Assembly (NCBI GenBank): GCA_037043015.1
Contig: CM073330.1
Location: 707,263 to 771,262, forward strand
Source: Bryum argenteum
Lineage: Eukaryota; Streptophyta; Bryopsida; Bryales; Bryaceae
Reading direction: 5' to 3'
DNA length: 64,000 nucleotides
The translations under genes were made by a program, and so were the position numbers. Each line of letters opens with the position of its first letter. Within the stretch, counting starts at the first letter, position 1. Below, in pieces: positions 12,316 to 64,000 of this stretch. The notes under the pieces are model-generated. The model saw only the letters and a program-made list of their open reading frames with translations, made no database searches and had not been told where the DNA came from.

Positions 12316-12353
12316 AATCTGAGGCCTGGTAGACTTGAGAGGTAAATCCTTTA

Positions 12354-33202: not shown

Positions 33203-33204
33203 CT

Positions 33205-33216
33205 TGGTATCAGAGC
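33205..33216 (+). promoter_or_regulatory. Primer-binding site (initiator Met tRNA)
   Basis: TGGTATCAGAGC lies two bases after the 5' LTR. It matches the complement of the 3' end of plant initiator-methionine tRNA, the usual primer of Ty3/gypsy and Copia elements. Confidence 0.95.
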
Positions 33217-33254
33217 AGGCTTTTAGTACCCAAGTGCAAAGTTGTGAGGGAGCA

Positions 33255-34829: not shown

Positions 34830-34889
34830 TGGCAAGGAGTTAGTGTTGAAGTTAACTCGTGGCCCTTCAATAGCGGGGGCAAATTAAAC

Positions 34890-36350: not shown

Positions 36351-37799
36351 CATGCCATGAGCACCACCCAAGTTTTGCGGCTCATGTATAAGGGTGAAGG
36401 CAATTGGGAACGGCGGATAAGAGAGGGGTACATGAAGGACCCCGAGGTACAACAAATGCTTGGTGATCTTAGGAAGGGCAAGAAGCTCAAGGAGATCAAG
36501 TTGGTGAATGGATTGCTCAAGTATAAGCAAAGTAGGGTGTATGTTCCTCAAGGCAAGCTTAGATTGTTGGTTTTGAAGGAGGAACATGATAGTCCCATAG
36601 CCGGCCATAGGGGAGAAAAGGCTACCATTGCAATGGTGTCAAGGAGGTACTATTGGCCGGGGATGAAAGATGACATAACCCACTTTGTGAAGACTTGTGT
36701 GAAGTGCCAACTTAACCGGGCTTCATATCAAAAGCAAGCGGGCTTGTTGCAACCATTGCCAATTCCGCCGGGTCCTTGGCATAGTGTGTCTATGGACTTC
36801 ATCACAAGCCTTCCCGAGTCGCAAGGGTATGATGCCATCTTAGTGATGGTGGATCGGTTTAGCAAGTTGGCTCATATGGTGCCAACTAGAGAAGCCTGAA
36901 GCGCGCTTGAGACCGCCAAGATCTTTCTCGATGCATGGTGGAAGCATCACGGGTTGCCAAGAGTGATTGTGCGGATCGAGACCCAAAGTTCACAAGTGCA
37001 TTTTGGAGACACTTCTTTAGGAAGGTGGGAACCAAGTTGACATTTAGCATCGCCTTTCATCCCCAAACAGATGGGCAAACCGAAAGGGTGAATGGGGTCT
37101 TGAACCAATACTTGAGGAACTTTGTGAGTGCGGACCAACGTGATTGGGTAGACTATGTGGGGTTGGCGGAGTTCGATTACAATGCGGCCACACACTCGGC
37201 GACTAAGGAGTCACCTTTCAAAGTGGCCTATGGAGTGGAGCCACTCCAACCCGCCGACTTAGCTCTCGAGGGGCACATTCAACACCGAGTTCAACCAAGA
37301 TGGTGAAGACTTGGCCAAGAAGCGGGAACATATGTTGGAAAAAACCAAGTTGTTGTTGGAGAAGGCAAGAAGGCGCTATGAGAAGCAAGTCAATGCCGGA
37401 AGACGTGAAGTGGAGTATGAGGTGGGACAAAAGGTGTTGTTGAATGTGAAGAACTTCACCATGCCCGAAGGCCTCACTCCAAAGTTCATGTCCAAGTTTG
37501 CGGGTCCGTTTCCCATTGTGGAACGGGTGTTCAAAGATGTGTATAAGTTGGAGCTACCACCCGAGATCAAAGTGCATCCAACATTCCAAGTTTCATTGTT
37601 AAAGCCATTCAAGGAGGATACCTTGTGGCCGGATCGCAAGCAAGTGATTCGGCCACCACCAGAGTTGGTTGGACAACATTTGGAATATGAGGTAGAGGCC
37701 ATCCTCAAGAGTAGGAACCTCAAAAACAAGAGCAAGGAATACCTTGTGAAGTGGCGAGGATACCACGAGAAGGAAGCAACGTGGGTGGCGGCAAAGGAC
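36351..37799 (+). pseudogene. Integrase and first part of the chromodomain
   Basis: The HHCC zinc-binding part (HDSPIAGHRG, CVKCQLNR) is followed by the catalytic core with SMDFITSLP, DRDPKFTS and HPQTDGQTERVN, which supply the D, D and E residues. A TGA at 36897-36899, a frameshift near 36965 and another near 37290 break the frame. The C-terminal part runs through KFAGPFPIVERV into a chromodomain (EYEVEAILKSRN, YLVKWRGY, ATWV), which directs integration to marked chromatin in chromoviruses. The frame is then cut by the hAT insertion after 37799. Confidence 0.93.
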
Positions 37800-37810
37800 C
37801 AGGGTTGTCA
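37800..37810 (+). repeat. Left terminal inverted repeat of the hAT element
   Basis: CAGGGTTGTCA, the perfect inverse of the right end. CAGGG-type ends are common in hAT elements. Confidence 0.95.
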
Positions 37811-37974
37811 AATCGGTCGACATTCGGAGTAAACCTAGTCCGCGGACGTAGTCCGGACTATGTCGACCGGGACCATAGTCCGGACCATGGTCCGGGGGGG
37901 TAAATGGGAGTTACCCGGTGCTGGTAACCACGGGGCCGTTGGATCATCCACTGGCGGCAAAGATCTCGGCCGTC

Positions 37975-38419
37975 GATCTTGATCCCGGCTCTGGCCGACC
38001 GACCCCGGCCGCCGCCGGTCGGGATCGGACGGCCGCCGACCGCATCAAATCCTGGCCGTTGGATCAAGATGGAACGTTGCGGGCCGTTGGATTGGGGCGC
38101 CGTCCGCATGCCCGACGGCCGTCGGATTCGGCGTGGCCGACCGACGGTCGGTCGGGGTGGCTGGTCCGTCCGACGGACGGACGGTCGGGCAAACCGGGCG
38201 GCCGGTCGGCCAGCGGTCGGGCCGTCCGATCGGACGGATCGGTCGGTAAAACCGGGCGGCGGTCGGCCAGCGGCGGTCGGTCGGCCTGGCGGGCGGTCGG
38301 TCGGCCGGCGGTCGGCCGTCGCCCGGTCGGCGGGCCGCGGCCATCCGGCGGGCCGTCCGATCGGTCGGTCGGCCAGCGACCGATCGATCGCCGTCCGATC
38401 GGGGCGGGCCGTCGGCCGC
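37975..38419 (+). promoter_or_regulatory. CpG-rich block 1, upstream of the kinase-like gene
   Basis: About 445 bp made largely of CGGTCGG, CCGACGG and CGGCCGG words, far richer in GC than the surroundings. It lies between the left transposon end and the TATA box of the kinase-like gene. Open frames run through it on both strands but are artefacts of the low-complexity sequence. Confidence 0.8.
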
Positions 38420-38427
38420 TATAAAAG
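38420..38427 (+). promoter_or_regulatory. TATA box of the kinase-like gene
   Basis: TATAAAAG followed by GCCGACCGCC and a pyrimidine-rich stretch with CTCACTTC. Very similar to the start regions of the other hAT cargo genes. Confidence 0.7.
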
Positions 38428-38643
38428 GCCGACCGCCTCCTTTTTTCTCACTTCTTTCCTCCATTCTCACGAAGAGAGGATGCGGAGTTTCTCTGGTTGG
38501 GAATTCTTTGTGATTCTGTCCCACCGGCTCCTTGTCTTTTGGAGGAAGGAAGTCACTTGTTATACGGGGGAGTTTTTGCTTTTTTTTTTGAAAAGTTTTT
38601 TTAAAAACTTCACACTTTACATATTTCCTTTTTTGGGATCAAG

Positions 38644-40125
38644 ATGCCGAAGGAGAAGAAGAAGAAGGGTGTTGCGAACTTCTTTGAGAAGTTTGAGCCT
38701 CATGAGGTCCCGGGCGACGCTTGTAAGGTATTCTTGATAGAATTTACCGTCAAATTCTATGAGGCCAATGATCTTGAGCATTGGAAAGCAAATATGTGAG
38801 ATATCGGGAGGAGGGCATCCAGAAGTTCAAGATTGAAATGAGAGATCTCATGATAGAAGTGCTTCAGCATCCGAAGTGGGTAGCAGAGACAGAGAAACGA
38901 GGGTTCATGTGGTTTTTGGAGAATAGGGTGAAGGATGCACTCTGGAATCCCAAGGTTGTAATAGCCAAATATGGGAGGATATTTCGGGAGGGTGATGAGG
39001 ATTTCGTTGACGTGGTGAATAGGGTCGATTGTTTTTCCGCCCAAATGAGGGCATTTTCAAAGAATTCACACCGTCGAGGCTCGGAACATGGTGGCAATCG
39101 CTAGAGGGACGACAAACTCAAACCATGCGATTGACTCATTTGGTTACCATTCCGGATCTGACTCAAATCATACGAGTTGACGACACGAGGTTGAAGGGAC
39201 GGTATGGTACTATTGTCAAAGTTCGTCGAAGGTGTTGGAGGCATTGAACCATTTTGGGAATTTCTTTGCAAAAACTTCCATTCACCACTTGACACGACCG
39301 GAGTTGGCAAAATTGGAGCATATGAATGAGTCTATGGCGATAAGGATTGGACACCAGTGTGTGATCCGCTTTGTGGCCATTCATCCAGTGAAGAATCAAG
39401 GCTATGCGTTTTGGTGGAATGGCGGGACTATTCGAGAGATCTTTGAACCGCGATATGGATTATGGTGACGATGTCTTTGTACATTTGAACTTTGGGAATT
39501 ACCCCGACGACGAAGTTATTTGGGCGCATCAATCGATTCGATTCCGTAAAAAACGGATGAGCTTGCTTGGGCGTTGTTGCATATCATGAACGAGGTCCAC
39601 AAGAGCCACCACCTCCATAATGATATATCTCCGGATAATATCCTTCTCCACTTCCCCGCCGATGAATCACGAGTGTATATCGGAGTATGCGATTGGGGTT
39701 CTCCACAACGGTTCAGGAACCAATGCAATCCCTTTATACATTTACAAAACGTGAGGAGATGGTGGAGACCTGCGAAAAACGTTATTGGGTAGATCCACGA
39801 GTGGCGTTCTTGTACAAAGCGGGTGAGGATTTACGGAGTTATTCCAAAATACTCGATTGCTTCGGAGGAGTTTGCCACGGCCCGTATAGCACAAAGAATT
39901 AATGGGATGACCATGTCTACGGCGACGACGAGCTTGCAACGTGGAAACCGAAATACTTCGGTATTCTCCAATGAAGACCTTGCACAAGCTTTCCATCTTT
40001 ACATGGATAGAGTATGCAACGAGAGTCGTGACGGCGCTGGAGGGTTGTCCCATATCATCTCACGGTTTAGCGATATGTTTCATTGGCCTACGCCTCGTGA
40101 GCATTTTCGGACGAATTACGAATAG
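38644..40125 (+). pseudogene. Protein-kinase-like cargo gene A, multiply frameshifted
   Basis: The ATG at 38644 begins MPKEKKKKGVANFFEKF. Reading then passes through all three frames: 38781 (HPKWVAETEKRGFMWFLENRV), 39029 (a glycine-rich-loop-like KGRYGTIVKVR), 39232 (MAIRIGHQCVIRFVAIHP), 39404, 39574 (HNDISPDNILL with CDWG), 39687 and 39823, to a stop at 40123-40125. HNDISPDN resembles the kinase catalytic loop HxDxxxxN, and CDWG the metal-binding DxG. So this was a protein-kinase-like gene, apparently captured or long resident in the transposon. At least five frameshifts make it inactive. I cannot place it in a kinase subfamily. Confidence 0.72.
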
Positions 40126-41215
40126 GAGAACGTAGAATTTGTTTTACGCATATCGGTTTTATTATAGTTTATGAATTAGTATGTTTGTTCTATTTTCAGT
40201 GCAACAATACTCTTTGTTTCAAATGCATTGCATGCCTTTCAAATTTTGGCCCACCAAGTATACTTATGTTTATTATAATATTTTGCCCCTTTGCACCATT
40301 TGGATGAGGCCTTTAGGGTAAAGCCCAGAAAAACCTATTGATTCAATTTTTAAGTGTTGGTTGGGTAATTCAAATTTAGCGATTTATCTTCTATTTTTCT
40401 TCTCATATGTTTATAAGCGAATCACTACTGAAATTCCAATATTATTTAAGTCATAATATTTACCAATTTTACAGTGGCAGGCATGTGACCTCCAGAAATT
40501 ACCAACACAAGCTCAAAATGTATTAGTAAATTCTGAATTACATATTTCAGAATTTGTCAAAATTCTAGATTATGGAAAACTGTTAGAACTAAGTTACCTC
40601 AAAAATCACAAACTCCTACACTCACATACCCCACTCTAAGTTCTTTATAATACGAAATATACGTAATGACGTGCATGTTTTACTATAGTATTGTTCGGAC
40701 CTGCTTTTAGAAAATAACTTGTAAGAATGTCAATCAAGAGGAATGAGCCTCCCAAATTTTGCATGAATTTACTACATTTGATTACATATAGGGAAAAAAT
40801 ATGTCCAAAATTTTGTTGGTAACAATCGCCAACTCCCCCTTTGCACCGTGGAGACACTGCCTCCGAAGCAAATCCCAAATAAAGTTTTAAACAAACTGGT
40901 TAATAAATGGAATCATAACATATTTACTCAAATAAATGTGTAATATAGGTTATGGTTCTACATTCCGTATATCATTCATATGATGTCCGTTTACCAACAA
41001 AACATGGTTAAGAAGGTCTTAAAAAATGACCTCTACCATATGGAGAATAGAGTTCTCATCCAAATACTACATGTACGTACAGTACATTACAACATGCCTA
41101 TATGTAAATGTATAACTACTTTGCATCCTAGTCCTTATCATATTGTGTTCCACTTGGCCCTGCTTGGTCTGAGTACCGCCCTCGCGAATAAGCATCATAC
41201 AAGCGCTGCTCGTCG
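40126..41215. other. AT-rich spacer between hAT cargo genes
   Basis: About 1.1 kb between the convergent 3' ends of cargo genes A (+) and B (-). I see no gene or strong repeat. Confidence 0.6.
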
Positions 41216-42793
41216 TCAGAATACGATCATTTTCAAGCTTGCGGATGTACTCCGCTTGACTTTGAATTGTTGCCTCTCGTAGTTGTCTTTCAAACTCTGC
41301 ATCTTCTTCTTCACGAGTTCGGAATGGTGGCGGGGGAGTGTTGTTACTCCCATATGCATGTTGGCCATATCCTGGATATGGATACTGAGTGATATGCTCT
41401 TCACGATCCTTGTTCCGGTAATTCCAACTGGGCTCGTATTCATCTCTTGCTTGACTTGGAGTACGGTACTCGGGATTGGTAATAGCTCTACCGTACTCGC
41501 CGTGATGATCATGCGTATCTCTTGAATACGTTGGTCTAAAGCTATCTGGAACCTCAGGTCTTCTACCGTATTGGTTGTGAGCATCGTATGATCCAAAGAG
41601 GATACGTTTGTGGGGTACCTTTCTCGAATGTTAGGTCCTCTCCCATATCGGCCTCGAGACTCGTATGTGTCCCTTGGATGTGTTGGGATATGGTACTGCG
41701 GACTACCGGTCCTCTACCATATTGGCGGGAACATCGTTAAATTCCCGAGGATATGTTGGCGTATAGCTCTCCGGAGCACTCATTCCACCGTATCGGCCCC
41801 GACTCGTATGTATCCCGAGGATATGTTGGCATATATCTTCCTCCAAAGATTCGGACTTGTATCGTGTTGGCCTCCTGGATTGGTACGTATCCCTTGGATG
41901 CTCGGCCTATATGTCTCGGGAGTAGTGGTTCTGGACCGTATATATTGCTACCGGGATAATACCCACCACTTCCTATGCCAAAAGAGATTGGTACCATACC
42001 CCCGTTATTATTTTTGCGATTATAATTATCTCTGTGTGTGACCCCATATCCCCTCGGAGGTGTATGTTGTTGATGTTGATTGACATTCGTATCCCCTCGG
42101 AGGTGTGTCTTGTTGATGTTGTGTTTGACCCTCGTATCCCCTCGGAGGTGTATCTTGAGAAATTCGTGTCGACCTCCATATCTCCTTGGAGGTGTACTTT
42201 CTTCATCTTGAACTTCCGACATCTCCGTATATGTCCGATTTGACCAAAGGGGCATACAATCATCGGCTCCAAGCCAACTAGTTGGTATGAAATCATGGCT
42301 CCGATCCAATTCGGCAACATTCAAAACCTTTTACGGTGCTCCAATTCACGTTCTTATGTAGAACGATTTACGCCCAAACCATAGCCATGTTGGAATATAA
42401 CATGATTTCGGCCTAGTATTCCGTACTCCAACGGCAATGGTCACTTCATGATAACGAAGTGTGAAATGTTGACTTGTGCAAGAATCTGGCGGCTAGTCCT
42501 TCGCGTCGTGGCCCCGATATAATCGCTTGATTTCTTGGCCATAACTTCATGAGGTGTTTCATCTTCACATATCGCTTGCACATGGTGCAATTCCAAATTC
42601 TCGCCGGTTCATCTTCCCATCCATCTTGGCAACACAATTTGGATCGTCGATTTGCTTCCCAATCCATCTCCGGGGCCTTGCCCTTGGGTGCACTAGTACG
42701 TCGTTCCTCGGCATATTGTTCACCCACAAAAAAAAAAAACCGCAAAAAAATGGCGTCGATTATCAAGAGGGGACTCGAGGAGCGCATCGACAT
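41216..42793 (-). pseudogene. Repeat-rich cargo gene B sharing a domain with cargo gene C
   Basis: On the minus strand, reading from an ATG at 42793 passes APKGKAPEMDWE into RIWNCTMCKRYVKMKHLMKLWP (42570-42505 region). Cargo gene C has the matching EYWTAQICKKYVKMFHIGKLWP, so both encode the same domain (W, C, KRYVKM, KLWP conserved). After a frame change comes a low-complexity part with four TPPRGY-like repeats (42045-42200), then RDTYESG-type tyrosine/arginine/glycine repeats (41640-41900), and a C-terminal part rich in Q, E and R. Frame changes occur near 42400, 42200, 41740 and 41600. The function is unknown; the low-complexity part suggests a disordered nucleic-acid-binding or structural protein. 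Confidence 0.55.
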
Positions 42794-42848
42794 GGAAAAC
42801 CACAGCGACCGGGCGCACACGAGTGAGAAGAAATGAGCCCTGGTCGGC

Positions 42849-42856
42849 TATTTATA
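42849..42856 (-). promoter_or_regulatory. TATA box of cargo gene B
   Basis: On the minus strand TATAAATAGCCGACC, followed by GGGCTCATTTCTTCTCACT. The GCCGACC and CTCATTTC-CACT words recur at the other cargo promoters. Confidence 0.7.
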
Positions 42857-42857
42857 C

Positions 42858-43212
42858 CGATCGCGGCGGTCGGCAGATTCGCCCCGTTCCCTCCGGCCGT
42901 CCGATCTCCGTCGGCCATGGCCGATTCCGCCATCGGTCGGCCAGGATCGGTCGGCCAATCCGATGGCGCGATTGGCGATCGATGCGAGCCGCCCGATCGG
43001 TCGTCGACAGATCCGCCGTCGCGCCGCCGGATCGGCCGGGCTATCGGCGACGACCGATCCCGTCGCGCCGACGGATCCGACGGCCGCCGTCCGACGGGGT
43101 CGCGAGGGCGGTGGCCGGCCGTCGATGCGGTCGCCGGCCGTCCGATCTGGTCGCCGGCCGTCCGTCGTCCGATGCGATCGGCCCCCGTCCCCGTCCGGTC
43201 GGTGGGGGCTTT
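42858..43212 (-). promoter_or_regulatory. CpG-rich block 2, upstream of cargo gene B
   Basis: About 355 bp of GATCGGTCGG, CCGTCCG and GCCGGCCG words. Its upstream edge on the minus strand is an A run (a T run of about 55 bases on the plus strand, 43216-43271). Confidence 0.78.
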
Positions 43213-43215
43213 GTT

Positions 43216-43271
43216 GTTTTTTTTTTTTTTTTTTTCTTTTTTTCTTTTTTTTTTTTTTTTTTTTTTTTTTA
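43216..43271. repeat. Poly-T run
   Basis: About 55 bases almost all T with two C interruptions, at the border between CpG-rich block 2 and AT-rich DNA. A matching A run lies at 45198-45220 beside block 3. Confidence 0.9.
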
Positions 43272-45197
43272 TTAAACAACTGTTGGGTTTCCATAGGGAG
43301 AAGAAAATGAACAGCGATGGAGAACCAAGTCTTGTTTTTTGGATTTTTTCAAACATGAGGCATGCTTTCCCATGGCCCACAAAGAAAGGAATTCTTTTTA
43401 ATAGTTCTAGTCTTGGAGTCCAAATTTCCTCCACATGACCTAAACCAAGTCTTCTACAATGTTGTACGGTTGGGATCTAGATTGCTAACCTTTATTTTCA
43501 TCTCTTGCACTTTGCAAAACGTGTGTTTCTAGGCTCTAGAGTCTACACCCCCTTGGGCATTTGAGGTTAAGGGTTACAAATTTACAATGAACATGTATTA
43601 GCTTAAAAATATATTTTCTCATGAACTATAATAGAAGGCTATTGGCGTTCATGAAAATATGTGTACGTATAAAACATATAACATATAAATTTCATTATAC
43701 ATACATGCGTCCCAAATTTAGAACCAGGGATGATAGAATCTACTGTATCCTAATTTGTGTCTTCCATGTCAACAGTAGGTTTTATGTAAATAGACGTGGT
43801 TTTATTTATACCGTATATAATAATTACTCGTATTTTCTAATTTCATTCTTATTCACATTATAATTAGAATACTTCAAAATGACTTAAAGGAACAAAATAA
43901 GTTTTTTTTTTTTGCCAATTGGATCTAAGATTATATACTCCCCAAACGTAGTGCCTATTTTTAACCAAATGACGCATTATCAAATGAAGGGTCCTATATT
44001 GAAATGAAGATGCACAATTTACATTCTCAAACATGTAATATTGTAATAGACTTATAGAGCATGTGTGACCATTTAGTTTCATAACTTTGGTATTACCGTG
44101 TCAGGCCTTACATTGACCACAGTTAGACATTAGAATAGGCTTAACTGAAAAAACATTATGCCTAAACAACTCATTCTATTATTGGCTATTTTTGTTTGAC
44201 ACCCTTGAACTAAGGTAGGAGTATATTTATAATGTAGTACATATCATTGTACTTAATTTGCACATATTCTTTTTCCATATTTATTAGTACCATTTTTTTA
44301 TTGTATTTATTTGAATAATTATTTATTTACCTCTTACAAAGGTAATAGAAAGAGGACTCTATTGTTTTCTATTTCGCAATCACAAATAAAGAGAAGTAAA
44401 AAGGGAGACAAATAAATTTTTGAAAATATCCAACTCTAAAAGTTTTTAACATATCGCATCAACTTATAAAGATTGGTGTTGGAAATCTTTGGAAACTCAA
44501 TTGTGTGTGGAATGAAAATAAAGGGATTCGTGTATGCATGGTGTAGTATTGATTTATATTTTTAATCAATTAGAATGCCACTTTTCTCCATCGCATTGTT
44601 ATTATTATTGACATGGAATAAATCACGAGTTTGTTGCAAGGAATATATTGATAGTATTTTCAACATTCAACATAGCATCTAAGATTATAGACTCCCCAAA
44701 CCTAATGTCCATTTTTTACCAAATGTCGCATTTCCAAAATAAGGGTCCTATATTAAAATGAGGATCCTCAACTTACATTCTCAACCATGCAATATTGAAA
44801 TAGAGTTATAGTTGTAGGTCATGTGCCCCAAAGTTGAGTCATATAACCTCATACACTACGAGATCATAATATGTTAGTACACAAGAGAATTTAAGAAATT
44901 TCATCACTTCTAGATTGAAGTGAAAATTCATATAACAAAGCTCTTTGCAATCATGAAATCTCTAAGTAAACCATAAACCTAAACCCTAAACCCTAAACCC
45001 TAAACCCGGAACCCTAAACCACTAAACCAATATCCGTGAATAAAGAATATATAGCATTTCACAAATCAACATAGGATTCCTTTTTTTCATTGTGTAATAA
45101 TCATTTGAGAATCTAATAATGTAAATCGAGAGGGATTAAAATTTAAAAAGGATCCTATGTAATTTTGAAAGATTCCGCGAACACAATGGAAACTAAA
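43272..45197. repeat. AT-rich spacer with internal duplications
   Basis: No gene seen. A stretch at 43923-44055 (ATCTAAGATTATATACTCCCC and onward) is repeated in diverged form at 44678-44806. A second stretch at 44819-44935 (containing ACACAAGAGAATTTA) is repeated at about 47519-47635. These copies show that the spacer grew by internal duplication. Confidence 0.7.
44978..45028. repeat. Interstitial telomere-type repeat (CCCTAAA)n
   Basis: A run of four to five CCCTAAA units with degenerate neighbours (CCATAAACC, CCCGGAACCC). This is the plant telomere sequence, here inside the hAT element, so it is interstitial and not a chromosome end. Confidence 0.88.
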
Positions 45198-45229
45198 GAA
45201 AAAAAAAAAAAAAAAAAAAACCCGAAGCG

Positions 45230-45505
45230 GGCGATGGCGATGTACGATCGGTCAATCTGGGCCGCTCGCGTGCGGCCGACCGATGGGACCGGCCTACCGA
45301 CCGGCCCGGCGACCGGCCTACCGACCGCCCGGCGACCGCCTACCGACCGGCCCGGGCGCCGAAGCCTACCGACCGGCCCGGCGATCAAGGGACGGCCGAG
45401 CGACGGGCCGGCCGAGATCCGGCCGGCCGGCCGGCTCATGGGCTGCGCTCGCCGACCGACCGGTCGGCTATCCGTCGGTCGGCCGGCGTACCTCTCCTCC
45501 CCTCC
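45230..45505 (+). promoter_or_regulatory. CpG-rich block 3, no clear gene downstream
   Basis: About 275 bp of CCGACCGGCC, GGCGACCG and CGGTCGGC words, preceded by an A run (45198-45220). It has the composition of the other promoter blocks and would face the plus strand, but after CTCTCCTCCCCTCC and CTCTCACTTCC I see no TATA box or open frame. It may be the promoter of a lost fifth gene. Confidence 0.6.
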
Positions 45506-47911
45506 TCTTCTTGCCTCTCCCCGAAGGCCGTAACTCCCGCTTCCTCAACTTCTCTCACTTCCCCGCATTGCATATTTGCATTTCTATATTTAGCGTCTCG
45601 TACACGTGGCGTCTAAATCGGGGTAGGGAATGTTCGACAAAGGAATGTCGGGAAGATCTCTTTGTCGAAAAACAAGAATGTTTTATGACAAAGATACTCT
45701 AGGCTCCAAATAATTCTATAATAAGGGACTCCTTGCAAGAGGAGTCAAGGCCAACATATCTCCCATGCCTATTCCCCCATTAGTGAAGGTGTTGGGAGTT
45801 GGTGCCCATTTTTTCTAGAAGGAAAACGAAGGTTATGGGGCCAATTCTTATTATTAGCGAGAGTCCATGTTTTAGATTTGTTCTCATTGATTTTATTTCT
45901 TACAAATATTCTTTCTTAATTTGAATGAAGAGAACGCTTTTAGGCCATGAATTTTCATTCATTTCTTGAATGTCCCAACTTTTGTCAAATATTGATCCAT
46001 TCTCACAAGGAGATGTTTTCATATATTGTTCTATTGTTTTCTATATTGTGATCATAAATTAAGAGAAGTAAAAAGCGTTACAAATAAATTAATAAAAATA
46101 TCGCACCCTATAAGTTTTTAACATATGGCAATAACGGCATTAACTTATAAAGTTATAATCATATTTGATCTTGTACACGTATAGTACTTCTATTTTATGT
46201 TAAATGAAGTTGATTATTCTTATATTAGAAACTTTGATGGATTGATTAGGGAATAGAATGATTTGAATAGCCATTGCTTTTTCATTTAGAGTATATTGTG
46301 GATGAAATCACTTGAGCATAGGATATAAGGTTCATGGTCTAGGATTTATTAATTTCCCCTAGCTAATATTTTTATTTTTCCATATCCAATACATTATTTT
46401 ACAAACCTTTGTAGGCTAATTCCTTTATTATATATATTGGACATGTTATAGTCTCATCCGGGATGTTGGTTCTTAACTGGGGTCCCCTCTAAAATGAAAA
46501 TAATAAAATAAATAATATATATACACTATACGGTAAAGATAGAGCGGTTTTTGCTAAAAACATATTTAGAGGTAAAGTCACTCTACATAAATAGCGATTT
46601 AATGCTAAGATTTTATTTTGAGATAAACAAGTTCTATATAAATAGTGGTTCTACTTAAATACATATTTAGAGGTAAAGCAAATCAATTCTACTTTGTGTG
46701 CGAGAACTATAAATCAAAAAGTACATACATAAGTATATATACTATACATGTATTGATGTATACAGGAAATATTATATTTATAATAAATTCAACAATAATA
46801 CGATACAATTATAATATATATTACATATAATATATACCTTCATATACATATTATACTATGAAACATAAAGTACATACATAAATATACATATTCTAATTTA
46901 TTAATACATAGTATATACGTAAATATACATATCCTACTTTAAATATAAATGGTTTACATACATGAAGAGTTAGATTTCTATAATTGATCTATTAATAAGA
47001 TTTGTTTTTAGAAATTGGAAAGTAAAAGACTATAGAAAGACTTTTAGGTGGATATATAAACTCATGGGTAAGATGGAAGAGACTATTTTTTGTCGTGAGT
47101 TCTTTGGTTATATTTATATACAATTGTTATATTCGATATGAAAATTGGAGTTTGTATCTATCTATCTTCTTGAAGAACAGTAATTACCAGTTTATAATTA
47201 TCCTATTAGTATAAGAAATTCGTTGCAAGGGAGACGGTTAAGTAGAAACTTTTAAGCAGCTAGGTCTAATTTTTAAAAAAAAACCTAAAACAAATTTAAA
47301 TAAAACAACTTTAAATTTGTAGGGAAAGTTTACACAATTTGGGAATAAAATTTTATCCACATTTCTTATTTCTTGAGATCTATCTCACGTTTTTTTACAT
47401 GCGCTTCTTACGTTGGTAATTGTATTTTTAATTCAAAATCACTCAAAACATAGAATTTGGTACAAAGGGCGGTTATTTAGTCTCCATTGAGGATGCCCTA
47501 AAAACATACTCTTGTAAGTCATGTGCATAAAGTTTGATTCATAGAGCCTCATAGATTGCGAGATGATAATTTATTAGTGCACAAGAGAATCTACTAAATT
47601 TCATCATTTTCGGATTGAAGTGAAATTCATAATAAGTTGGTTTTGAGGGGTTTTGGCACTTTTTACGGCTACTTTATACTAGAGGCCATTTGAAGTTGGG
47701 CCCATTTGGAGTTGAGCCCACTTGGACTTAAAGTGTGCCTTAACTTTAGCTCTACTTTACAAAGTGGGTCATAGAGTGGATCTTGCAATATAAAGTCCTA
47801 ATGCCCACTTCGAGGGCCCAAATTTAATATTTTAGAGATAGATAGATCTTCATTGGTTGATGCCTAGGGTTTGTAAAGGGGCACAACAAATTTTGGGGTT
47901 AGGGTTTAGAG
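45506..47911. other. AT-rich spacer in the hAT element
   Basis: About 2.4 kb with no supported gene. It holds TA-rich simple sequence (46720-46960), a short duplication of CATATTTAGAGGTAAAG (46559 and 46661), and the second copy of the stretch described at 44819 (47519-47635). Confidence 0.6.
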
Positions 47912-48195
47912 GGGCGGCCGGCGGCCGCTCCGCCAGGCCCGGCCTGCGAAGGTTCGGCCGTCAGGGTCGGTCGGCCAGGCCCAGGCGGTCCGGGCGATCA
48001 ATCGGACGGTCCTGGGGGTCGGTCGGCAGTCCGGGGCGGTCGCGAGTTCGGGGCGGTCGTGTCCGGGGCGGTCGGCAGGTCGGGACCGGACGGCGGGTCA
48101 ATGAGCGGTCGGCGGTCGGTCGGTGAGCGGTCGGCCGCTTCGGGCTTCGGACGGCTAGGCCGGTCGGCGGTTCGGTCGGCCGGTCCGGCATGAGG
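47912..48195 (+). promoter_or_regulatory. CpG-rich block 4, upstream of cargo gene C
   Basis: About 285 bp of GGCCGGCGG, CGGTCGG and GGGGCGGTCG words, ending 5 bp before the TATA box of cargo gene C. Confidence 0.8.
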
Positions 48196-48199
48196 GCAC

Positions 48200-48207
48200 T
48201 ATAAAGG
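48200..48207 (+). promoter_or_regulatory. TATA box of cargo gene C
   Basis: TATAAAGG followed by CCGTCGGCTTCATTTTCC and ACTTCC, closely resembling the starts of cargo genes A and B. Confidence 0.72.
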
Positions 48208-48373
48208 CCGTCGGCTTCATTTTCCACCACTTCCTCTCTCATGGTAACCCAATTCGAATTGCCTCCGATTGCTAAGGCGCGCTGCGCATTCTAGTTGGAG
48301 AGGAGAAGGGGTCGGTTTTTTTCACATTTGTTATGGGCGCGCCGTCCGTGGATCCTTCGGTGATACTTGCACG

Positions 48374-51300
48374 ATGACGTCGACCGAGAACGTGAACACG
48401 AGTATGGAGGTGGAGAATTCGATGATATCAGAGGCGCCTAAGAAGAGGAATAAACAAAAAGGTGCAACTCATGGATGAATTGGGAGATTTTAGAGAATGA
48501 AGACATTAAAGCGGAACGCGGTTGGGAATCGGAGGTGACGGAGTATTGGACCGCTCAAATTTGCAAGAAATATGTGAAGATGTTTCACATTGGCAAGCTT
48601 TGGCCTAAAGAATGTCATGCGATTCATACCAAGAACTTTTGTTGCAACCGGCAACATGCAAGGATGATCACTTTATCCACCGCGTGCGGAGGAAGTATGG
48701 CGGGCCTTGTTCGGGATCGTGCCAAAACAAAAGGGTACTTTTGTTACCAATTGTTGGCAATGGTATATCTTTGAGTTGATACTACGGCGGAAGATAAATT
48801 GGAGCACGTACCAAACTAATACTCAATTTCCGCTTCGCATTGAAAGGAAGCGAAGCATATCCCGGATTGTTTTGATCCACAATCCGCCTTGACAAAGCAT
48901 ATTTTGGAGGTTTTGAGAAAAAAAAAAAAAAAACAAAGGTCAAGAGGATACAACGGAAGATGAGAATGTCGTTACAAAGGATACGAGACATTCCTCTTGC
49001 CACGGATGGTCTATCAAACGAACAATCTGCAGTTGATAGGCTTCGGGATGTAATTGATTGGAGAGCGATCATTGGAAGAGGCGAATGCGGTGCAAGATCG
49101 TGTGGGGACTTAGAGAATGTAGTGGAAGAGGTACTCTCCCCTCTCATTCCAGATAACCCTATTATTCCCAATGGCCTAAATTTGACCGATAATAATCCAA
49201 AATCGAATGAGGCAGGGCCAAGTAAACCAATGGAAACAACATCCATGCCGATTCCATTACTCCATGAGATGGAGAAGGATTGGTGGTCAAATTTCGAAGA
49301 ATTATATGAAGGAGTACCAAGCAACAAGAAACTGCGAGAGTATCTCACTTATATTGACGAAGTAGCGAAGGTCATATACGACGAAACCATTCCAGATGGT
49401 GAGACGAAGATGAAGTGGGAAGACACCAAAAAAACCCATATATTGCAAGCTGGGACCGAGATGAAAGTCGGGGTTGAAGTTGTTGCTGCTATGGTTCCAC
49501 GGTTTTTAGAATTGGCTCAAACTCTTGCCATAATGACGCCTCGAATGCTAGAAGCAGCTATAGACTACGAGAAGATATCAGAGGCATGGCTCCCGTATGT
49601 GAAAGCAAGGATAAAGGATACGGAGGAGTTTATAAGTCTTCAGGATAAGTATAACGTAGCAATTACCGTGATTGACAAGGTGGTTTATGATTTCAAACTT
49701 AATGGATATGAGCGCGAGAAAATCCCCCGTACTCATCGCAATCTCATGGAGCAAGCGATGAACATTTTGAATCCTCCCGAAGAAGGTGATGTGGAAGATG
49801 TCCCCGTAAATCCAAAAGATAATTATCCAATTTCAAAAATTGGAGAAAGGATCGAAAAGGAAGGTGATCTTATCCCATCTAATAATGATGGGAATAATAA
49901 GAGTGATGGCCCGGAGATGAAAGGTACTCCATCATGCGAGCCGGGGGCCTACCGAGGCGAGAGAGGACATTCAAGAGAAGGAAGCGGTTGTTCAAGACGC
50001 AGGAGAAAGGAAAACAAATCATCGATTTGGACGATGATCTGGAATCGGAGGACAATGGAAGGAGGGACGTGCGTGTAGAGGATGATACACATTCGAAGGG
50101 AAAAGATTGCCTACATAATCAATGTCCTAAAGAAACATTGGAAATGCAATTGGAAGCGATGATGAAGCGAGAGAGATGAGGCACGAGTGAACTAGAATCC
50201 ATACGAATGGCATTGAGAAATGTGGATTATACACCACGCGAAGAGAACATATTGCCTTGGTTGGCTTGGGTTCACCGACTTCAAGATAGGGAGGCCATGG
50301 TTTCAAAGGCACAACATAATCAAGAAGATCGCCGCCAAATCATGTGGTTCGAGTGAACATGTGAATACATCATTGGAGGAATTTAAAAATACGAAAGATT
50401 ACGAGAACACGAACCTACTAAGGTCACTATTTGGGGTGATGTCGAGGAGATGATGGAGCGAACAAATTTCAATCGGATGGGAAAAGATGATGATATTGAT
50501 TGGAGTTTGGAAGTAGCGAAGGATGGGTGCCATACAACTCATTCTCATCGCATTTTGTGGAATCAAATCGAAATGTCGTTTACACATGCGACCCCCACCG
50601 ACAATATGAAGGAAAAATGTGGCATGTGCCGATATCATTTCGGTCCAGAAGGAGCGTACACACTAGGCCAATGTGGCCATAACTTTCATGTTACTTGCAT
50701 AGCAAGCGCTGGCCGGGGAAAATCATCATGTCCTATATGTCGTTCTCCAATTAGCACGAGATTCTACGAAGTGATGGGGATGCGCGATGTCATGCCACCT
50801 GGGCACGAGTTCAACCGATGGAATCTCCCTTTGGATCAACTTCCAAAGAAACTTCACAACTTTCGTGAGTGGGGGAAAGCACTTGAATGGGATAGTTCAA
50901 CATCAAAACACCAGCTCCTCATGCATGATGTAGGCGAGACAGATCCATTGCTTTGGATGACACATGACTACGAGGTGGAGATTAGGGCGCGAGATATTGA
51001 AGACAGCGAGCAACGAGAGATGTTTTGCCGCAACTTTGGAGGACATTGAGTCATCGAACACAATCGTTTCTTCCGATTCCCTCCAAAGAGAGTGGAGAAG
51101 GGAGAAGATGGTTTGTGGCATGAGGTAACAAGTGACATTGAGTTTGGAGAGGAGTACAAGAAGTACGATGATAGGCCGATTGGAAGGGCTTTAGTCCTAG
51201 CCAAGTTGGAAGACGCCGCACACTTACGGATTTCAACGAAGGAGGAATCTTTCAAAGACGCAGACTGTACTTTCTGGGAGGCGGTAGAGAAATTTGAGTC

Positions 51301-51646
51301 GCGCATTAAGAACATCATTACTCATTGGACGACAATGATCAAAGACCCGAAGCCGGAGTTATTGGTGTCTATCACAGTAGAGGACTCGTTTGTGAAGGAT
51401 GTGGTGGGACGAATCGAGGAGGCCATGAAAATCTTCCGTTCCAAAAATGCTAACCCACCCAAGAAACGGAAAAGGGATGATGGCAATGAGAGCGACGACA
51501 GTTGGATGTCGGGCAACAACAGAGAAATTGCTGCAGTGGATCAAGAATACGACGAGGGCGGTAGAATTGCTAGACCAAGCCAAAGACCCCGGACTCGTAG
51601 TATAGCAAATACAATTGATACAGAAGAGCATTCAGTTGCGATGTAA
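48374..51646 (+). pseudogene. Long cargo gene C with a RING-H2 finger
   Basis: The ATG at 48374 begins MTSTENVNTSMEVEN. After a frame change near 48475 comes the domain shared with cargo gene B (EYWTAQICKKYVKMFHIGKLWP). A poly-A run at 48920-48934 precedes a long intact frame, 48960-50078 (GPSKPMETT, DWWSNFEELYEG). An in-frame TGA at 50177 and frame changes near 50060 and 50360-50450 follow. From 50450 the frame encodes a RING-H2 finger (CGMC, CGHNFHVTC, CPIC; residues 57-97 of that segment), typical of E3 ubiquitin ligases. A TGA at 51047 is followed by an in-frame final part (51092-51646) with PPKKRKRDD, a likely nuclear signal. It may be one long gene or two. A RING protein in a transposon could act on host or transposase stability; that is inference. 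Confidence 0.65.
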
Positions 51647-51921
51647 TAGAAATCCAGTAGAAGCGTAGACGGTTAAGGAGGGTTACAGTTCCCGGAATAG
51701 GGTCGCATACCATTTTGGATTTGTAATGCATGGTTTTTATAATGAAGTTTTTTATTTCTTATGATGTAATAGTCTTTTGTTGACTATTCACCGACATTTT
51801 CAGACAAAATAAAGTAAGAACATATCAAGAGTTTGGTAATAAAGTTTCACGAGCTATACTATCTCTAGCATACACGAAGTATGCTAGACCTCTACTACGT
51901 GTCTGAGCATGTAATTAATGT

Positions 51922-54817
51922 CTATTCATCCACATCGGTAGGAATTGCATAATCGTTGTCTCCTTTTACTTCAGCTCCGCTAGATCCCGTAGGGTCATTT
52001 TCGAAATCACTACTAACTTCTTGTTTGATTCTTCGTTTGTGACTTCCCGAATGAATGATCTTGAATTTTCCCGCATTCTCAATGGCATCAAGGGGATTCT
52101 TCGGTTTATCATGAAGAAACGGAAGCATTGGAGCTTTACGTTTCGTCATAACTCTTGGAGGCTCCTTCTTCCGTAGCCCTGAACCTCCTGGAAGGTTCTT
52201 GTATCCCAATTGAAGAAGCGGTACATCCGAGTCACTAGAGATTCCGCCGGAATTGGAACGTACTGTTCGAGGTCGCACTTGATTTGAAAGTGACACCAAA
52301 CGTTTGGAAGATTTCTCCATCACTGTAGGGACCTCTAAATCACATTTTTGAAATAGAGACCGAGAGGCAACAGCAGGCAAAGCAGGTTCGTCCGCAGTGG
52401 CGGACGTCATATTTATCGTTATTGGATCCAACGTAACAGTACGGCCATGAGTATCATCCCCCACGATTTTCACATTCGGAACAACGTTCTCGTCCGTATT
52501 TGGAGTTAGTCCGGTACGAGGGGTATTATCACATGTGACTTTGTCGGTATCCTTTTGAAACCGTGGTAAATGAGCTAGGGGCAACAATTCATCTGGATCA
52601 TCCGCCTCAGCTTCATCGTCAACAAAGTCATACGTGGTGTTCGGGACGTTCAAAGCATCTTGCAAGCTCATAGCGGGGATGCTATTGAGGTCATCTTCTA
52701 GGTCCTCCAAAACGTGATCCGAAAAGCCTTCACCAATTGAGTTATGGGGGGTTTCTTCATCCTCGGAGTCACGTACATCACGATCCTCTACATCCAAGTT
52801 CTCCGAGTACCACCTCTTCTCATCCGTTAACTTTGCGTTTGCAAGTAACTTTGAGTTGGTGTATACAAAGACCAAGTCATCTGCCCTTTCCGGTAGCAAC
52901 CGATTCCGCTTCCTATCGTGAACGAAAGAGTAACTGCTCCAATTGCGTTCGCACGCCGACGATGACACCGTTTGAGCTAGGATTCGCTTTGCAATCGGAG
53001 CAAGGAGTTTTCCAACAAACCCTTCAATTTCCCACCAAACAAAGGGAGAACATTTCGACTCAGTAGGATCCAACATCTCATGAAATGGTGCACTCCTCAT
53101 TCGAAATGCCATATATTCATTCGCCACATCATGATAAGTGCCCGGAGCACATAGAATTTTTAGAACACGCCTGCACCCATGCCAGACCTCAGTATCATCT
53201 GCTAACTCTTTGTCATGTAGTAAATAAGGATTCAAAAGTGCACCAGCACAGAGCAGATCTGTTGTCATCATCTTTTTCCTTGCGTAGAAGTTCTCCTTCG
53301 CAATGTCCGCTAAATCCGTCGGGAGTGAAAATGGTTCTGTAGATAGCGTCAGTACATGCTTCTCGAGCTGACGAACGATATGCAAAGCCTTGCCCGTACA
53401 AGGCTCCTTGCCGTCGAATTCCCGAAGAGCATACACTACTGGGGCCACCATATCTCGGAAGTTTGTACAACGCCAAAAACCGTCATCCAAAACCACTTTT
53501 CTTACGTTGCGGGACTCCAGTAATTTATCTCTAGCCGATAGAGACTTCTTCGAGGCATATGACAACCATCGGGATCTACAAATGATTTGCTCCAAAGAAT
53601 CGCGAACCTGCAATAAGCGATCTATCATTATAAAATTGCACGCAAATCTTGTTTTCCCAGGCATCAATAGGCTAAACCTTGTCTCATGTTTACGAAACAC
53701 GGCTAAAGGCATTTGACGATTTTTGATGAACTTGACCAAGCCCTTGGCCTTTTCCAAAGTTTCTTTCACCCATGACGCCTTTCCCCAATCTTCCAACAAC
53801 AAATCCATCGCATGCGTGACGCATCCCTGAATGAATATATGGGGATAATCCTCAACGACTAATCGAGAGGCATTAATCATTACAGAAGCGTTGTCCGTGC
53901 AGACTTGGACAACGTTCTCAGGGCCAACTTGTTTGATGAACTTGACCATGATAGAGGCCATATACATTGCTGTCTTTTCTTTGCGGTAGTAGTATCGGCG
54001 CGCAAGAAAAAGCTCTCAAACAGAGTCACTAGCATTGCATTTACAAGAGGCGACTACTGAGATGACCATCCATCCATGGCTAAAGTTCCCCCGAACTTCC
54101 GAAGGCTCTCCTTGAGTCTACTATCTAGTTTTCCTTCTAGATCACTTTTTACTTGTCCCAACAACTTTGTCCGAATGTCATGGTAAGAAGGTGGGACATA
54201 TGGTTTTCGGAAAGAAGCAGTTTTCATTACGGCTTCCTTGAAGATCGGATTCCGTGCTCGACAAAGAACGAAGACGTTTGCTTCATAGAAAAACTTTGCC
54301 CAAAGTATGTCTAGTTCCCGCCTATCCGCTTCAGCAAAACCATCTTCAATCACAGATTGTTTCATCGCCCTATTGATATGCCCACCAACCCCCACTTGTC
54401 CCGCAAAGTTAGGAACGGCGGAGATTGATCCAACTAAAGGTGTTGATGGAATCGAAGGGGTAGCTTGAGAAGATCCCACGCAAGAGTCTCCACCAGTGGA
54501 CCTTGGCGTGCCAACATTCGGAACTTCTGATGACGATGGTATTGAATGAAAACCGCTCATTTCTCCATTATGTGGAGGGAACCGCCCGTCACATCTTCGA
54601 AATAAATCCATCACTCGGGTGTTCAATTTTGGACAAAGCGTAACTGTATTAAGGCGGACCCCACGCTTGCCTTCATAACCAAGGTGATCGAGTGCCGTTC
54701 TAGCCTCTTGCTCATAACCCTTATGGCGAGATTGCATTGGACAGTTGGGGTCGTGGTAGGTTGGCCTTGTACTTCATGAACATCGGTGAACCAAGGTGAG
54801 GATGATTTGTTGGCCAT
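51922..54817 (-). pseudogene. hAT transposase, frameshifted
   Basis: The ATG at 54817 begins MANKSSSPWF. A frame change near 54740 leads into ARTALDHLGYEGKRGV and, after a low-complexity stretch, GGTLAMDGWSSQ, the start of the DUF659/RNase-H-like core. Frame changes near 54057 and 53975 flank SPLVNAMLV and LRADTTT. The long frame 53967-51922 has VGPENVVQVCTDNASV with the second catalytic aspartate region, CVTHAMDLLLEDW, and the hAT dimerisation motif SSACERNWSSYSFVHDRKRNRL (near 52960-52890). The tail (about 230 residues) is acidic then basic. The family cuts and pastes DNA with 8-bp target duplications, as found at the ends of this element. Three frame changes make this copy inactive as read. 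Confidence 0.92.
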
Positions 54818-55017
54818 TTTGATAGGTAGGACACCTCAAAATGATCAAACGTGGTAATAGATATGTAGAAAAAAATGTCAAGAGTTCGTAAACGAACTCG
54901 CACTCCGAACTCAATACGTACCAAGCAACGGACACATAACATAAAGTTATGCGGCTTCCGAGACTTTGGGTCGCATTCACAATTCGGAAGTGAAATGAGG
55001 CCTTGTGTCTCTTCTCT

Positions 55018-55023
55018 TATATA
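55018..55023 (-). promoter_or_regulatory. TATA box of the hAT transposase gene
   Basis: On the minus strand GTATATAAG, followed by GGCCTCATTTCACTTCC. The CTCATTTCxxACTTCC string also follows the TATA boxes of cargo genes B and C. Confidence 0.7.
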
Positions 55024-55079
55024 CCTTCAACCCCGAATTTGACCGTTGAAATTTGAATTTCTCGCCGTTGAATTCAAGT

Positions 55080-55450
55080 GGTCGAGCTTGAGCCGGCCGA
55101 CCTCGGCGGTCGCCCGCGTGCCGTCGGGCGGCCGACCTTGCCGGCCGCCCCGCGGTCGTCGGCGGCCGACCTCGCCGGTCGCCACCCCGGTCGGCGGCCG
55201 ACCTCGCCGGTCGCCACCCGGTCGGCGGCCGACCTCGCCGGTCGTCACCCCGGTCGGCCGGCCGACCTCGCCGGTCTCGGGGCGGTCGGCGGCCGACCTC
55301 GCCCGACCGCGACACCGGTCGGGCTCTCGAACGTCGGTCCCAAAGACCGGTCGGCCGGTCGGAGAGTCGGACGGGGGTGCGGTCGGCCGGTCAAACGGTC
55401 GGACGGGGGTGCGGTCGGCTGGACGGGGGTGCGGTCGGCCACCTGTCGGA
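55080..55450 (-). promoter_or_regulatory. CpG-rich block 5, upstream of the transposase gene
   Basis: About 370 bp of GGCCGACCTCGCCGGTCG and CGGTCGGC words in short tandem arrays, between the transposase TATA box and the right transposon end. It mirrors block 1 at the left end. Confidence 0.82.
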
Positions 55451-55561
55451 CGGTAATTTACCCTATGTAAATTATAAAAAACCCGTTATGTCACCGACAG
55501 GTCCTAGGGGCTGAGGACGACCGGACCATGGTCGACCGGTCGCCCCCTGGTCCGGTCGTCC

Positions 55562-55572
55562 TGACAACCCTG
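55562..55572 (-). repeat. Right terminal inverted repeat of the hAT element
   Basis: TGACAACCCTG, the perfect inverse of 37800-37810, followed by the target duplication. Confidence 0.95.
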
Positions 55573-55655
55573 CAAAGGACATGGTGAATGCTAAGGAGGT
55601 GGTGGAGAACTTTGAGAAGAATAGGAGCTCCAACAAGAAGCAACGTAGGCATTGA
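55573..55655 (+). pseudogene. 3' end of the chromodomain, beyond the hAT insertion
   Basis: The duplicated bases CAAAGGAC (55573-55580) are followed, in the same frame as the upstream part, by MVNAKEVVENFEKN and a basic tail, with a stop at 55653-55655. This is the usual acidic/hydrophobic last helix of the chromodomain, so removal of the hAT element plus one target copy would leave a continuous frame here. Confidence 0.92.
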
Positions 55656-56454
55656 TGAGGACATCAATCTCCGTAGTGGGGAGGATGACTTGTAGCTTGG
55701 GCGTAGATCCACAACACTTGTACTTGTTCTTTGGATTTGGCAATAAAGTTTGGCTTTAGTGTGTGCAAAGAGAAGAGTATGAGATGGAGTCCTAGTCTTG
55801 TACTTGTGCTAAGTTGGTGGAAGAGGGGGAATAGAGATGTGAAACCGAGTTGGGAAGGCCGAGTAATGGGGACCAAGGCTAGGAGAAAGAGTGGATAAAA
55901 CCATGAAGTCCCTTGGCCTTGGGCTTGTCCGGGCGGGGACAAGGTAATGGCGCGTGCTCATAAAAGTGCCACTCCCACAAACTAGTGCAAGCTAGTGCAT
56001 GGGAGTCATGAACCCATGCCTCGAAAGAGATAGTGGGATCCGAGTTGGGCGGAACTTGGCATTACCCCCGTGCGATCGAGTCGTGGTGTAAAAGCCATCT
56101 TGGGTTTGCAACCAAGACAACTTGGTGGAAGCATTGAGGTCCAGACTAGTAGTCAAGGAAGAAGTGTTAGGCTAGTGGAGCCTAACTTGGAGAGCCAAGG
56201 TAAGGGCAATCCAAGAGGGTCTCAAAGTAGGTGGGTCTAGAGTAATTTAGTTGCCTTGGAAGAAGTCCAGGGTTCTAAATGGACCACCTAGTGACGACAC
56301 CTTTGAGACTTTGCCAAAGTTTGAGAGTGCATTGTGGGGGTCGCGCCCTGGTGAAACACAATCTTTGCACCAATGGGGATGGCAACCCAAGAGTTGGTGT
56401 GACCGACTACAAGTATAGTCGATGAGGGCATCGACTCCATTAGGTGGGGGTGAG
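55656..56454 (+). other. Chromovirus 3' untranslated region with polypurine tract
   Basis: Non-coding 0.8 kb between the end of pol and the 3' LTR. It ends with AGGTGGGGGTGAG (56442-56454), the polypurine tract that primes plus-strand synthesis, directly against the LTR. Confidence 0.85.
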
Positions 56455-63968: not shown

Positions 63969-64000
63969 GTGAGTTTGAGGACTACTCAACCAAGAGAAGC

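Follow-up and report, generated by a model that had tools for sequence, protein, structure and literature searches.

A four-gene hAT transposon of about 18 kb in Bryum argenteum

Genes, ends and promoters of the element

The window, a 64,000-nucleotide stretch of Bryum argenteum contig CM073330.1, contains a hAT element that occupies exactly positions 37800 to 55572 (17,773 bp) and carries a kinase gene, gene B, a RING-H2 gene and a hAT transposase gene (Table 1). The perfect 11-bp inverted ends and exact 8-bp duplication of the original prediction were confirmed as the only pair of such quality between 36 and 58 kb, the remaining six end pairs among those listed for this interval reaching at best 9/11. 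The CAGGGTTGTCA end matches the plant hAT terminal consensus, [T/C]AGNGNNG, given in excerpts of PMC6027215.

Table 1 Features of the hAT element and its surroundings (window positions)
Feature	Position	Strand	Basis
Host LTR retrotransposon surrounding the hAT element	31890..57766	.	LTR pair, TSD TATAA
Left LTR of host retrotransposon	31890..33202		
Right LTR of host retrotransposon	56455..57766		
Target site duplication CAAAGGAC, left copy, 8 bp	37792..37799	.	end search
Left terminal inverted repeat CAGGGTTGTCA, 11 bp	37800..37810	+	end search
GC-rich island with TATA box and, counting both strands, 20 GGTCGG sites; promoter of the kinase gene, left subterminal region	37800..38430	+	
Kinase gene, frame interrupted here; product of about 494 aa where the frame is open	38644..40125	+	relatives, copy alignment
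Gene B, N-terminal domain and repetitive C-terminal part, frame interrupted	41131..42714	-	copy alignment
GC-rich island, 4 GGTCGG sites (count does not exceed shuffle maximum) and TATA box; gene B promoter	42850..43215	-	
AT-rich central non-coding region	43290..47880	.	subfamily comparison
Orphan GC-rich island, 9 GGTCGG sites, central region, no recognised gene adjoining	45225..45500	.	
GC-rich island, 12 GGTCGG sites and TATA box; RING gene promoter	47915..48200	+	
RING-H2 gene, frame interrupted in window copy	48374..51646	+	copy alignment
RING-H2 (C3-H2-C3) zinc finger	50615..50743	+	Pfam, alignment
hAT transposase gene (DUF659, Dimer_Tnp_hAT, D-D-E), frame interrupted near 5' part	51922..54817	-	Pfam, relatives
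GC-rich island, 19 GGTCGG sites and TATA box; transposase promoter, right subterminal region	55080..55440	-	
Right terminal inverted repeat TGACAACCCTG, 11 bp	55562..55572	-	end search
Target site duplication CAAAGGAC, right copy, 8 bp	55573..55580	.	end search

Pfam scans of the window ORFs confirmed both the hAT transposase (PF05699, E 4.8e-9; PF04937, E 7.6e-21) and the RING-H2 domain (PF13639 and PF12678, above cut-off). The transposase is 966 aa long in relative P0058. In an alignment of 44 of its 71 matches, each of at least 550 aa, the residues that we take to be the D-D-E triad were conserved at D248 (39/43), D309 (43/43) and E625 (40/41), rows gapped at a site being left out of the count. 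For the kinase-like gene, which had also been predicted, Pfam support was mixed: the one short ORF scanned from the broken window gene gave no match, full-length relative P0001 fell under the Pkinase cut-off (E 4.7e-5), P0002 just reached that of PF07714, and P0046 passed that of PF00069. The alignment of 32 of the 52 kinase matches nevertheless displayed K212, E231, D329, N334 and D352 (the D of a DWG motif) as invariant in 32/32; these are presumably the catalytic Lys and Glu, the loop Asp and Asn, and the DxG Asp.

The RING protein of copy C9i, counted from its first Met, is 1,079 aa long. The RING ligands C697, C700, C715, H717, H720, C723, C734 and C737 (P0053 numbering) are invariant in 5/5 sequences; the gene product is a predicted, ubiquitin-ligase-like E3 ligase. 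Gene B, for which the Pfam scan found no family, aligns with the N-terminus of a RING relative at 36% identity over 129 aa (E 9e-21), and from this sequence similarity we conclude that the two proteins have an N-terminal domain in common. The shared family of the original prediction is thus real, but its RING-side member is not separate from the RING gene: in open-frame copies the 'shared' N-terminus, a 400-aa ORF and the RING domain form one protein, and the element therefore has four genes in all.

GGTCGG occurs 72 times in the window, 67 of them inside the element, and all four promoters contain a GC-rich island bearing this motif followed by a TATA box. Blocks of the AT-rich centre are 76-93% identical in a second subfamily of the element, where they are also duplicated. 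An Rfam scan gave nothing at gathering scores, and a PDB sequence search returned weak kinase and RING matches and nothing else.

Insertion site, copies and linkage

The element lies within an LTR retrotransposon whose LTRs differ by three substitutions and one gap column in 1,313, and which is young. Through a search with the joined flanks, we recovered empty sites, which the original prediction had proposed to look for, the 300-base query being matched over its whole length at 100% identity in four places; the best 40 of 382 candidates were scored, and all stood at 99-100%. The empty sites hold one copy of the 8-bp duplication, as a precise hAT insertion leaves it. The window copy is a recent insertion of a large hAT family.

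Copies with the same gene set, the other check attached to the original prediction, were present: nine further copies match the element from one end to the other, with local gaps (about 84-97% identity in pieces longer than 200 bp), and the order and strand of kinase (+), gene B (-), RING-H2 (+) and transposase (-) are kept in 10/10 full-length copies. Of the 11 stretches inspected, the window among them, 8 show perfect ends flanked by identical 8-mers. The left end is altered in C6a and C2a; in C2b both ends are perfect, but no matching duplication flanks them. The seven copies in which clean ends and an 8-bp duplication occur together range from 17.6 to 18.7 kb. A 7.1-kb derivative, C9s, has the same ends, clean and with an 8-bp duplication, and none of the four genes, so that these genes are dispensable in cis. 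An assembly chimera is ruled out by the many independent copies.

We designate the window family W-type and the diverged second subfamily S-type. S-type elements have about half to two-thirds protein identity to the window family and an end sequence of their own, and they carry the same four genes in unchanged order. Two copies that differ in their flanks give CAGGGATGTCA as the right end, read inward; a search for the S-type left end did not find it. S-type locus C1T has the kinase, B, RING and transposase in this same order, and three of the four occupy long open frames. Incomplete S-type copies lack the kinase and gene B (C2S) or the transposase (C1S). The latter, at C1:31489500-31509499, was considered as a transposase-free cassette and rejected; since C6S, C2S and C1T do carry the transposase, we take C1S to be a right-truncated copy.

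A same-strand right end lies within 40 kb of 17 of 40 left-end matches (opposite-strand control, 0), and a W-type RING gene lies 8-27 kb inward of 24 of 40 (control, 1). Among the matches listed, kinase and RING are linked at 32 of 51 W-type kinase places (opposite-strand control, 1) and 16 of 33 S-type places (control, 0), and at 0/84 across types on the same strand; a convergent RING gene accompanies 37/47 transposase places, compared with none in the same-strand control and 0/47 across types. The places without a RING partner among these matches number 10/47 for the transposase and 36/84 for the kinase.

Substitutions, selection and frame breaks

Between the subfamilies all four genes are under purifying selection, with dN/dS of 0.20-0.39 for transposase and cargo alike: 0.29 for the kinase (bootstrap 95% 0.20-0.38), 0.39 for RING (0.31-0.46), 0.20 for the N-terminal part of gene B (0.11-0.34), and 0.23 (0.17-0.32) and 0.31 (0.24-0.39) for two transposase copies. 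Pairwise dN/dS within type is 0.66-0.76. Among W-type copies, tree-like sites of the RING protein carry 63 non-synonymous and 2 stop changes against 21 synonymous ones, which is near neutral, and no constraint is seen there.

On the three main tree-like splits, 154 substitutions fall in the AT-rich centre (about 4.3 kb) and 168 in coding DNA (about 9.3 kb), so that per base the genes evolve at about half the rate of the centre; the idea that the centre is more conserved than the genes was rejected on this ground. The excess of substitutions in coding DNA is largely not tree-like, substitution pairs failing the four-gamete test at 40% in coding DNA and 5% in the AT-rich centre, and one-base indels fail it at 48% and 54%. 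We take much of this excess to be recurrent consensus error, although recurrent mutation or gene conversion may be responsible instead. The frame breaks of the window copy are probably in part assembly noise; no copy examined was seen to have all four genes open at once.

Role of the cargo and comparison with known systems

That the locus holds one four-gene hAT unit, as originally predicted, is close to certain. In our reading it belongs to a hAT lineage that is autonomous and carries a constant accessory module, and taken jointly the data make it quite probable that the window copy is a recent member of a family that has long moved as a four-gene unit with accessory proteins. The original prediction suggested that the cargo may act on host signalling or protein turnover. 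The kinase, gene B and RING protein, judged from their sequences, probably serve the element, a role favoured because of purifying selection, linkage to the transposase and the common promoter motif. By analogy, a specific action in anti-silencing is a tentative suggestion that we hold at somewhat less than even chances.

Three other explanations have to be weighed against this element-serving role. The genes could be separate insertions nested between one pair of hAT ends, a pattern with examples in this genome, given that the hAT element is itself nested in a retrotransposon and that C6S apparently sits inside the transposase gene of a W-type element; yet no convincing inner pair of ends with a duplication was found, as the prediction of a single element implied, the nine copies have the interior in common and the second subfamily keeps the order, and an interior common to independent insertions refutes nesting for practical purposes. 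It is improbable, if less so, that the cargo genes were captured from the host and ride along as passengers, perhaps to the host's benefit, in the manner of Starship cargo or Pack-type elements. Kinases and RING-H2 proteins are common host classes, big transposons with cargo are already known (PMC11623301), the genomic context was read for few of the 52 kinase and five RING matches, and the own-genome searches scored the best candidates, which leaves room for host genes of the same families. However, passengers usually differ from copy to copy, and here three cargo genes stand in the same order in both subfamilies with purifying selection between them.

The trio might also constitute a selfish module, of the drive or sex-chromosome kind, for which the hAT ends are no more than a vehicle; its spread on contig C1 would then reflect that function. 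Of the 91 places assigned for second-subfamily RING genes, 60 are on C1, a contig that makes up 17% of the assembly, and kinase relative P0032 of Ceratodon purpureus (KC19_VG055000) is located on a 110.5-Mb contig and represents a group of 126 member sequences. The empty-site retrotransposon, however, is also concentrated on C1 (30 of the best 40 of 382 candidates, counted by eye), so that this contig may simply gather repeats, and we consider such a module very unlikely.

Under the element-serving reading, the transposase, expressed from the right-hand promoter, would recognise the subterminal arrays and cut and paste the element, with the kinase, gene B and RING proteins supplying accessory functions. 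The shared N-terminal domain would most likely tether gene B and the RING protein to one target, perhaps the GGTCGG arrays of every promoter and both ends or the transposase, where the RING-H2 part could act as a putative E3 ligase; the kinase may have its substrates among the proteins of the element or of the host. Overall, the module would most likely relieve host silencing or control transposition. The boldest version, a complex selfish hAT whose own kinase, E3 ligase and motif-recognising partner defeat silencing, and which has long multiplied in mosses, filling one chromosome and adding gene models counted as host genes, appears rather unlikely.

To our knowledge, hAT elements are a few kb long with one transposase gene. 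The present element resembles that superfamily in DUF659 and Dimer_Tnp_hAT, the D-D-E residues, 11-bp ends, 8-bp duplication and many copies, and differs in its size of about 18 kb and its three conserved extra genes. VANDAL elements are of the MULE type, a transposase superfamily other than that of the transposase here, which is hAT by Pfam. Excerpts of PMC5735166 present VANDAL/VANC of Arabidopsis as a plant transposon whose coding capacity goes beyond a transposase, with repeated non-coding motifs and possible anti-silencing, and name no kinase or RING gene; the likeness to our element would be one of role and not of descent. ToxhAT/ToxTA of fungal wheat pathogens is likewise large (14 kb), carries cargo and was first described as hAT-like, but a 2025 study (PMC12506042) classes it as non-autonomous and of the Tc1/Mariner type, its duplications being TA and its ends 74 bp long, unlike the 8-bp duplications and 11-bp ends here, and it is therefore no hAT precedent. 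Fungal Starships are also large eukaryotic transposons with cargo, defined in the same excerpts by a DUF3435 tyrosine recombinase as first gene (PMC12506042); our element instead encodes a hAT transposase, and its gene set is constant across many copies, and no such recombinase appeared among its proteins scanned with Pfam. Searches of open-licence PMC papers did not turn up a published hAT element of this four-gene kind, and for Physcomitrella one study, as excerpted, reports no hAT (PMC6027215).

The element presents a plant hAT as a stable multi-gene genome with putative regulatory enzymes, and its defined genes, motifs and open-frame copies make it testable how DNA transposons counter plant silencing. 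Relatives were absent from the viral and bacterial collections searched. Gene models annotated as kinases or RING proteins in moss genomes may in fact belong to transposons. Outside this genome, RING P0054 and transposase P0062 lie on contigs of equal size (8,444 bp), as do kinase P0034 and transposase P0077 (27,639 bp), the equal size being what points to a shared contig in each case.

Insertion into a retrotransposon

The original prediction of one element bounded by perfect 11-bp inverted ends and an exact 8-bp duplication was borne out: the hAT element spans 17,773 bp, is flanked on both sides by CAAAGGAC, and provides the only 11/11 end pair within 36-58 kb. It sits inside an LTR retrotransposon, which we take to be Ty3-type, with a separate TATAA duplication and LTRs that are 99.7% identical, only 3 substitutions and a single gap column setting them apart. 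Joining the hAT flanks with a single copy of the 8-mer regained an open frame, carrying what is presumably the chromodomain of a Ty3-type element. Empty sites were also present, as the rejoined 300-bp junction, free of the hAT element, was found unbroken at 100% identity in at least four genome places (best 40 of 382 candidates, all 99-100%). Because this uninterrupted junction occurs elsewhere, the hAT insertion is real and more recent than a young LTR retrotransposon. By a by-eye count, 30 of the best 40 rows among the 382 candidate places for this junction lie on contig C1. The window also holds a long direct repeat.

Coordinates of the features (window positions unless a contig is named)
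Feature	Position	Remark
hAT element	37800-55572	kinase(+), gene B(-), RING-H2(+), transposase(-)
Near-palindromic right end	55514-55562	bases 142-190 of 200-bp end query
Orphan GC-rich island	45225-45500	central non-coding region; nine GGTCGG sites
RING gene middle	about 49.3-49.8 kb	most diverged coding stretch
Host LTR retrotransposon	31890-57766	
LTRs of host retrotransposon	31890-33202 / 56455-57766	
Long direct repeat	10344-13824 / 60711-63984	pieces 89-95% identical
Short copy C9s	C9:11103900-11111600	7.1 kb

Copies and a second subfamily

In the 258.8-Mb assembly (25 contigs), where the window spans C10:707263-771262, we examined nine full-length copies and one short copy of the window element's subfamily (W type), making 11 stretches with the window. 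Perfect ends flanked by matching 8-mers mark eight of the 11, of which seven measure 17,610-18,693 bp and one 7,122 bp; left ends are altered in copies C6a and C2a, and C2b has perfect ends but lacks a matching duplication. Nine copies aligned end to end with the window element, gaps being local, and the predicted set of four genes recurred in all nine, so that the same order and strands are seen in 10/10 full-length copies, window included. The short copy C9s shares the ends and an 8-bp duplication, and its similarity to the window element is confined to terminal stretches of about 360 and 420 bp; none of the four element genes was detected, and its interior of about 6 kb gave no match to the window element at E 1e-20. 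C9s is a non-autonomous derivative of the hAT family.

Genome searches scored the best 40 of 112 left-end candidates, all of which matched, and the best 40 of 115 right-end candidates. A properly placed right end, W-type RING match or central block accompanied 33 of the 40 left ends, with opposite-strand controls of 0, 1 and 0, respectively. In most copies, the right-end segment matches itself on the opposite strand.

Scoring the best 150 of 742 RING candidates placed 56 in the W type and 91 in a diverged second subfamily (S type; about 51-59% identity), leaving 3 unassigned. All four S-type loci fetched are incomplete, none having both ends. Locus C1T carries kinase, B, RING (1,159-aa frame) and transposase (711-aa frame) in W-type order and is cut at the right end; C6S has a hAT transposase at the expected position and a truncated kinase; C1S lacks the transposase; and C2S, without kinase and B, aligns with C6S as far as a right end reading CAGGGATGTCA inward, beyond which the flanks differ. 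Kinase-RING and transposase-RING pairs were found within each type among the best-scored places, and no cross-type pair on the expected strand occurred among the matches listed. Outside this genome, source contigs are equal in size for RING P0054 and transposase P0062 (8,444) and for kinase P0034 and transposase P0077 (27,639), which suggests that the genes are linked in relatives. S-type RING genes occupy C1 at 60 of 91 assigned places, along the entire contig, which makes up 17% of the assembly, and kinase places on C1 number 21 of 51 (W type) and 21 of 33 (S type) among the matches listed. C1 might be a candidate sex chromosome.

Selection and frame integrity

Between the types, Nei-Gojobori dN/dS values, rough because dS (1.0-1.9) is near saturation, were 0.29 for the kinase, 0.39 for RING, 0.23 and 0.31 for two transposase copies and 0.20 for the N-terminal part of gene B, every bootstrap interval lying below 0.5. 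The similar dS across genes suggests that the four have travelled together as a group. At W-type sites following the copy tree, non-synonymous changes are in deficit in the kinase (16 versus 15 synonymous), the transposase (first 623 codons; 4 versus 13) and the gene B N-terminal part (2 versus 7); RING shows no such deficit (65, including 2 stops, versus 21). The RING middle has about 0.87 identity between two W-type lineages versus about 0.92-0.97 around it; either fast adaptation or a relaxation of constraint could account for this. Pairwise dN/dS values of 0.66-0.76 within the type fit many dead copies plus noise.

All four frames are broken in the window copy. Elsewhere, kinase matches are stop-free over their full aligned length in at least 7 W-type and at least 11 S-type places (best 86 of 1,124 candidates), and transposase matches covering 953 or more of the 966 residues are stop-free in at least four, two of each type (best 47 of 1,259); open copies of individual genes therefore exist. 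Part of the window-copy breakage is probably consensus error, because 48-54% of pairs of one-base indels fail the four-gamete test, their shared patterns contradicting the copy tree, and singleton indels are frequent (148 indel events in coding DNA versus 253 substitutions, summed over four genes). One-base indels are common beyond the element too, since 21 of the best 40 empty-site matches, counted by eye, cover the full query with a length of 299 or 301 bases. When the window copy is compared with the nine full-length copies, coding differences fall mostly off the copy tree, whereas substitutions in the AT-rich centre follow it, a contrast that points to context-dependent errors in the assembly consensus.

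Proteins, GGTCGG islands and candidate roles

Among the relatives of the kinase is a Ceratodon purpureus protein (78% identity over full length), which makes a moss the likely source of the window. Residues recognised as catalytic in protein kinases are invariant in the family (32 aligned of 52 matches), and the nearest solved chains by sequence are protein kinases, with weak matches. In the RING protein, the N-terminal domain that it has in common with gene B is followed by a variable middle portion, the RING-H2 finger and a C-terminal part that is well conserved; outside the finger, P0054 gave nothing above the Pfam cut-off.

Ahead of each of the four genes lies a GC-rich island containing GGTCGG sites, together with a TATA box, and 67 of the 72 GGTCGG sites in the window lie inside the element. 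Islands hold 20, 4, 9, 12 and 19 sites versus means of about 0.5-1.1 after base shuffling, the gene B island being weakest, its four equalling the shuffle maximum. The parsimonious account is that the hAT element is autonomous and carries a conserved accessory module. Since motif arrays stand at all promoters and two proteins have a common domain, a self-recognition system is plausible. VANC, a transposon-encoded protein described in PMC5735166 as binding a short motif built up by tandem repeats and removing methylation, offers a precedent for such a role rather than a relative of the element's proteins. Candidate roles for the module would be anti-silencing, transposase regulation and target choice.

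GGTCGG clusters occur in all three S-type loci checked (C1S, C6S and C2S), but not before every gene. No gene was recognised at the orphan island, and clusters lie at a similar central position in C1S and C6S.
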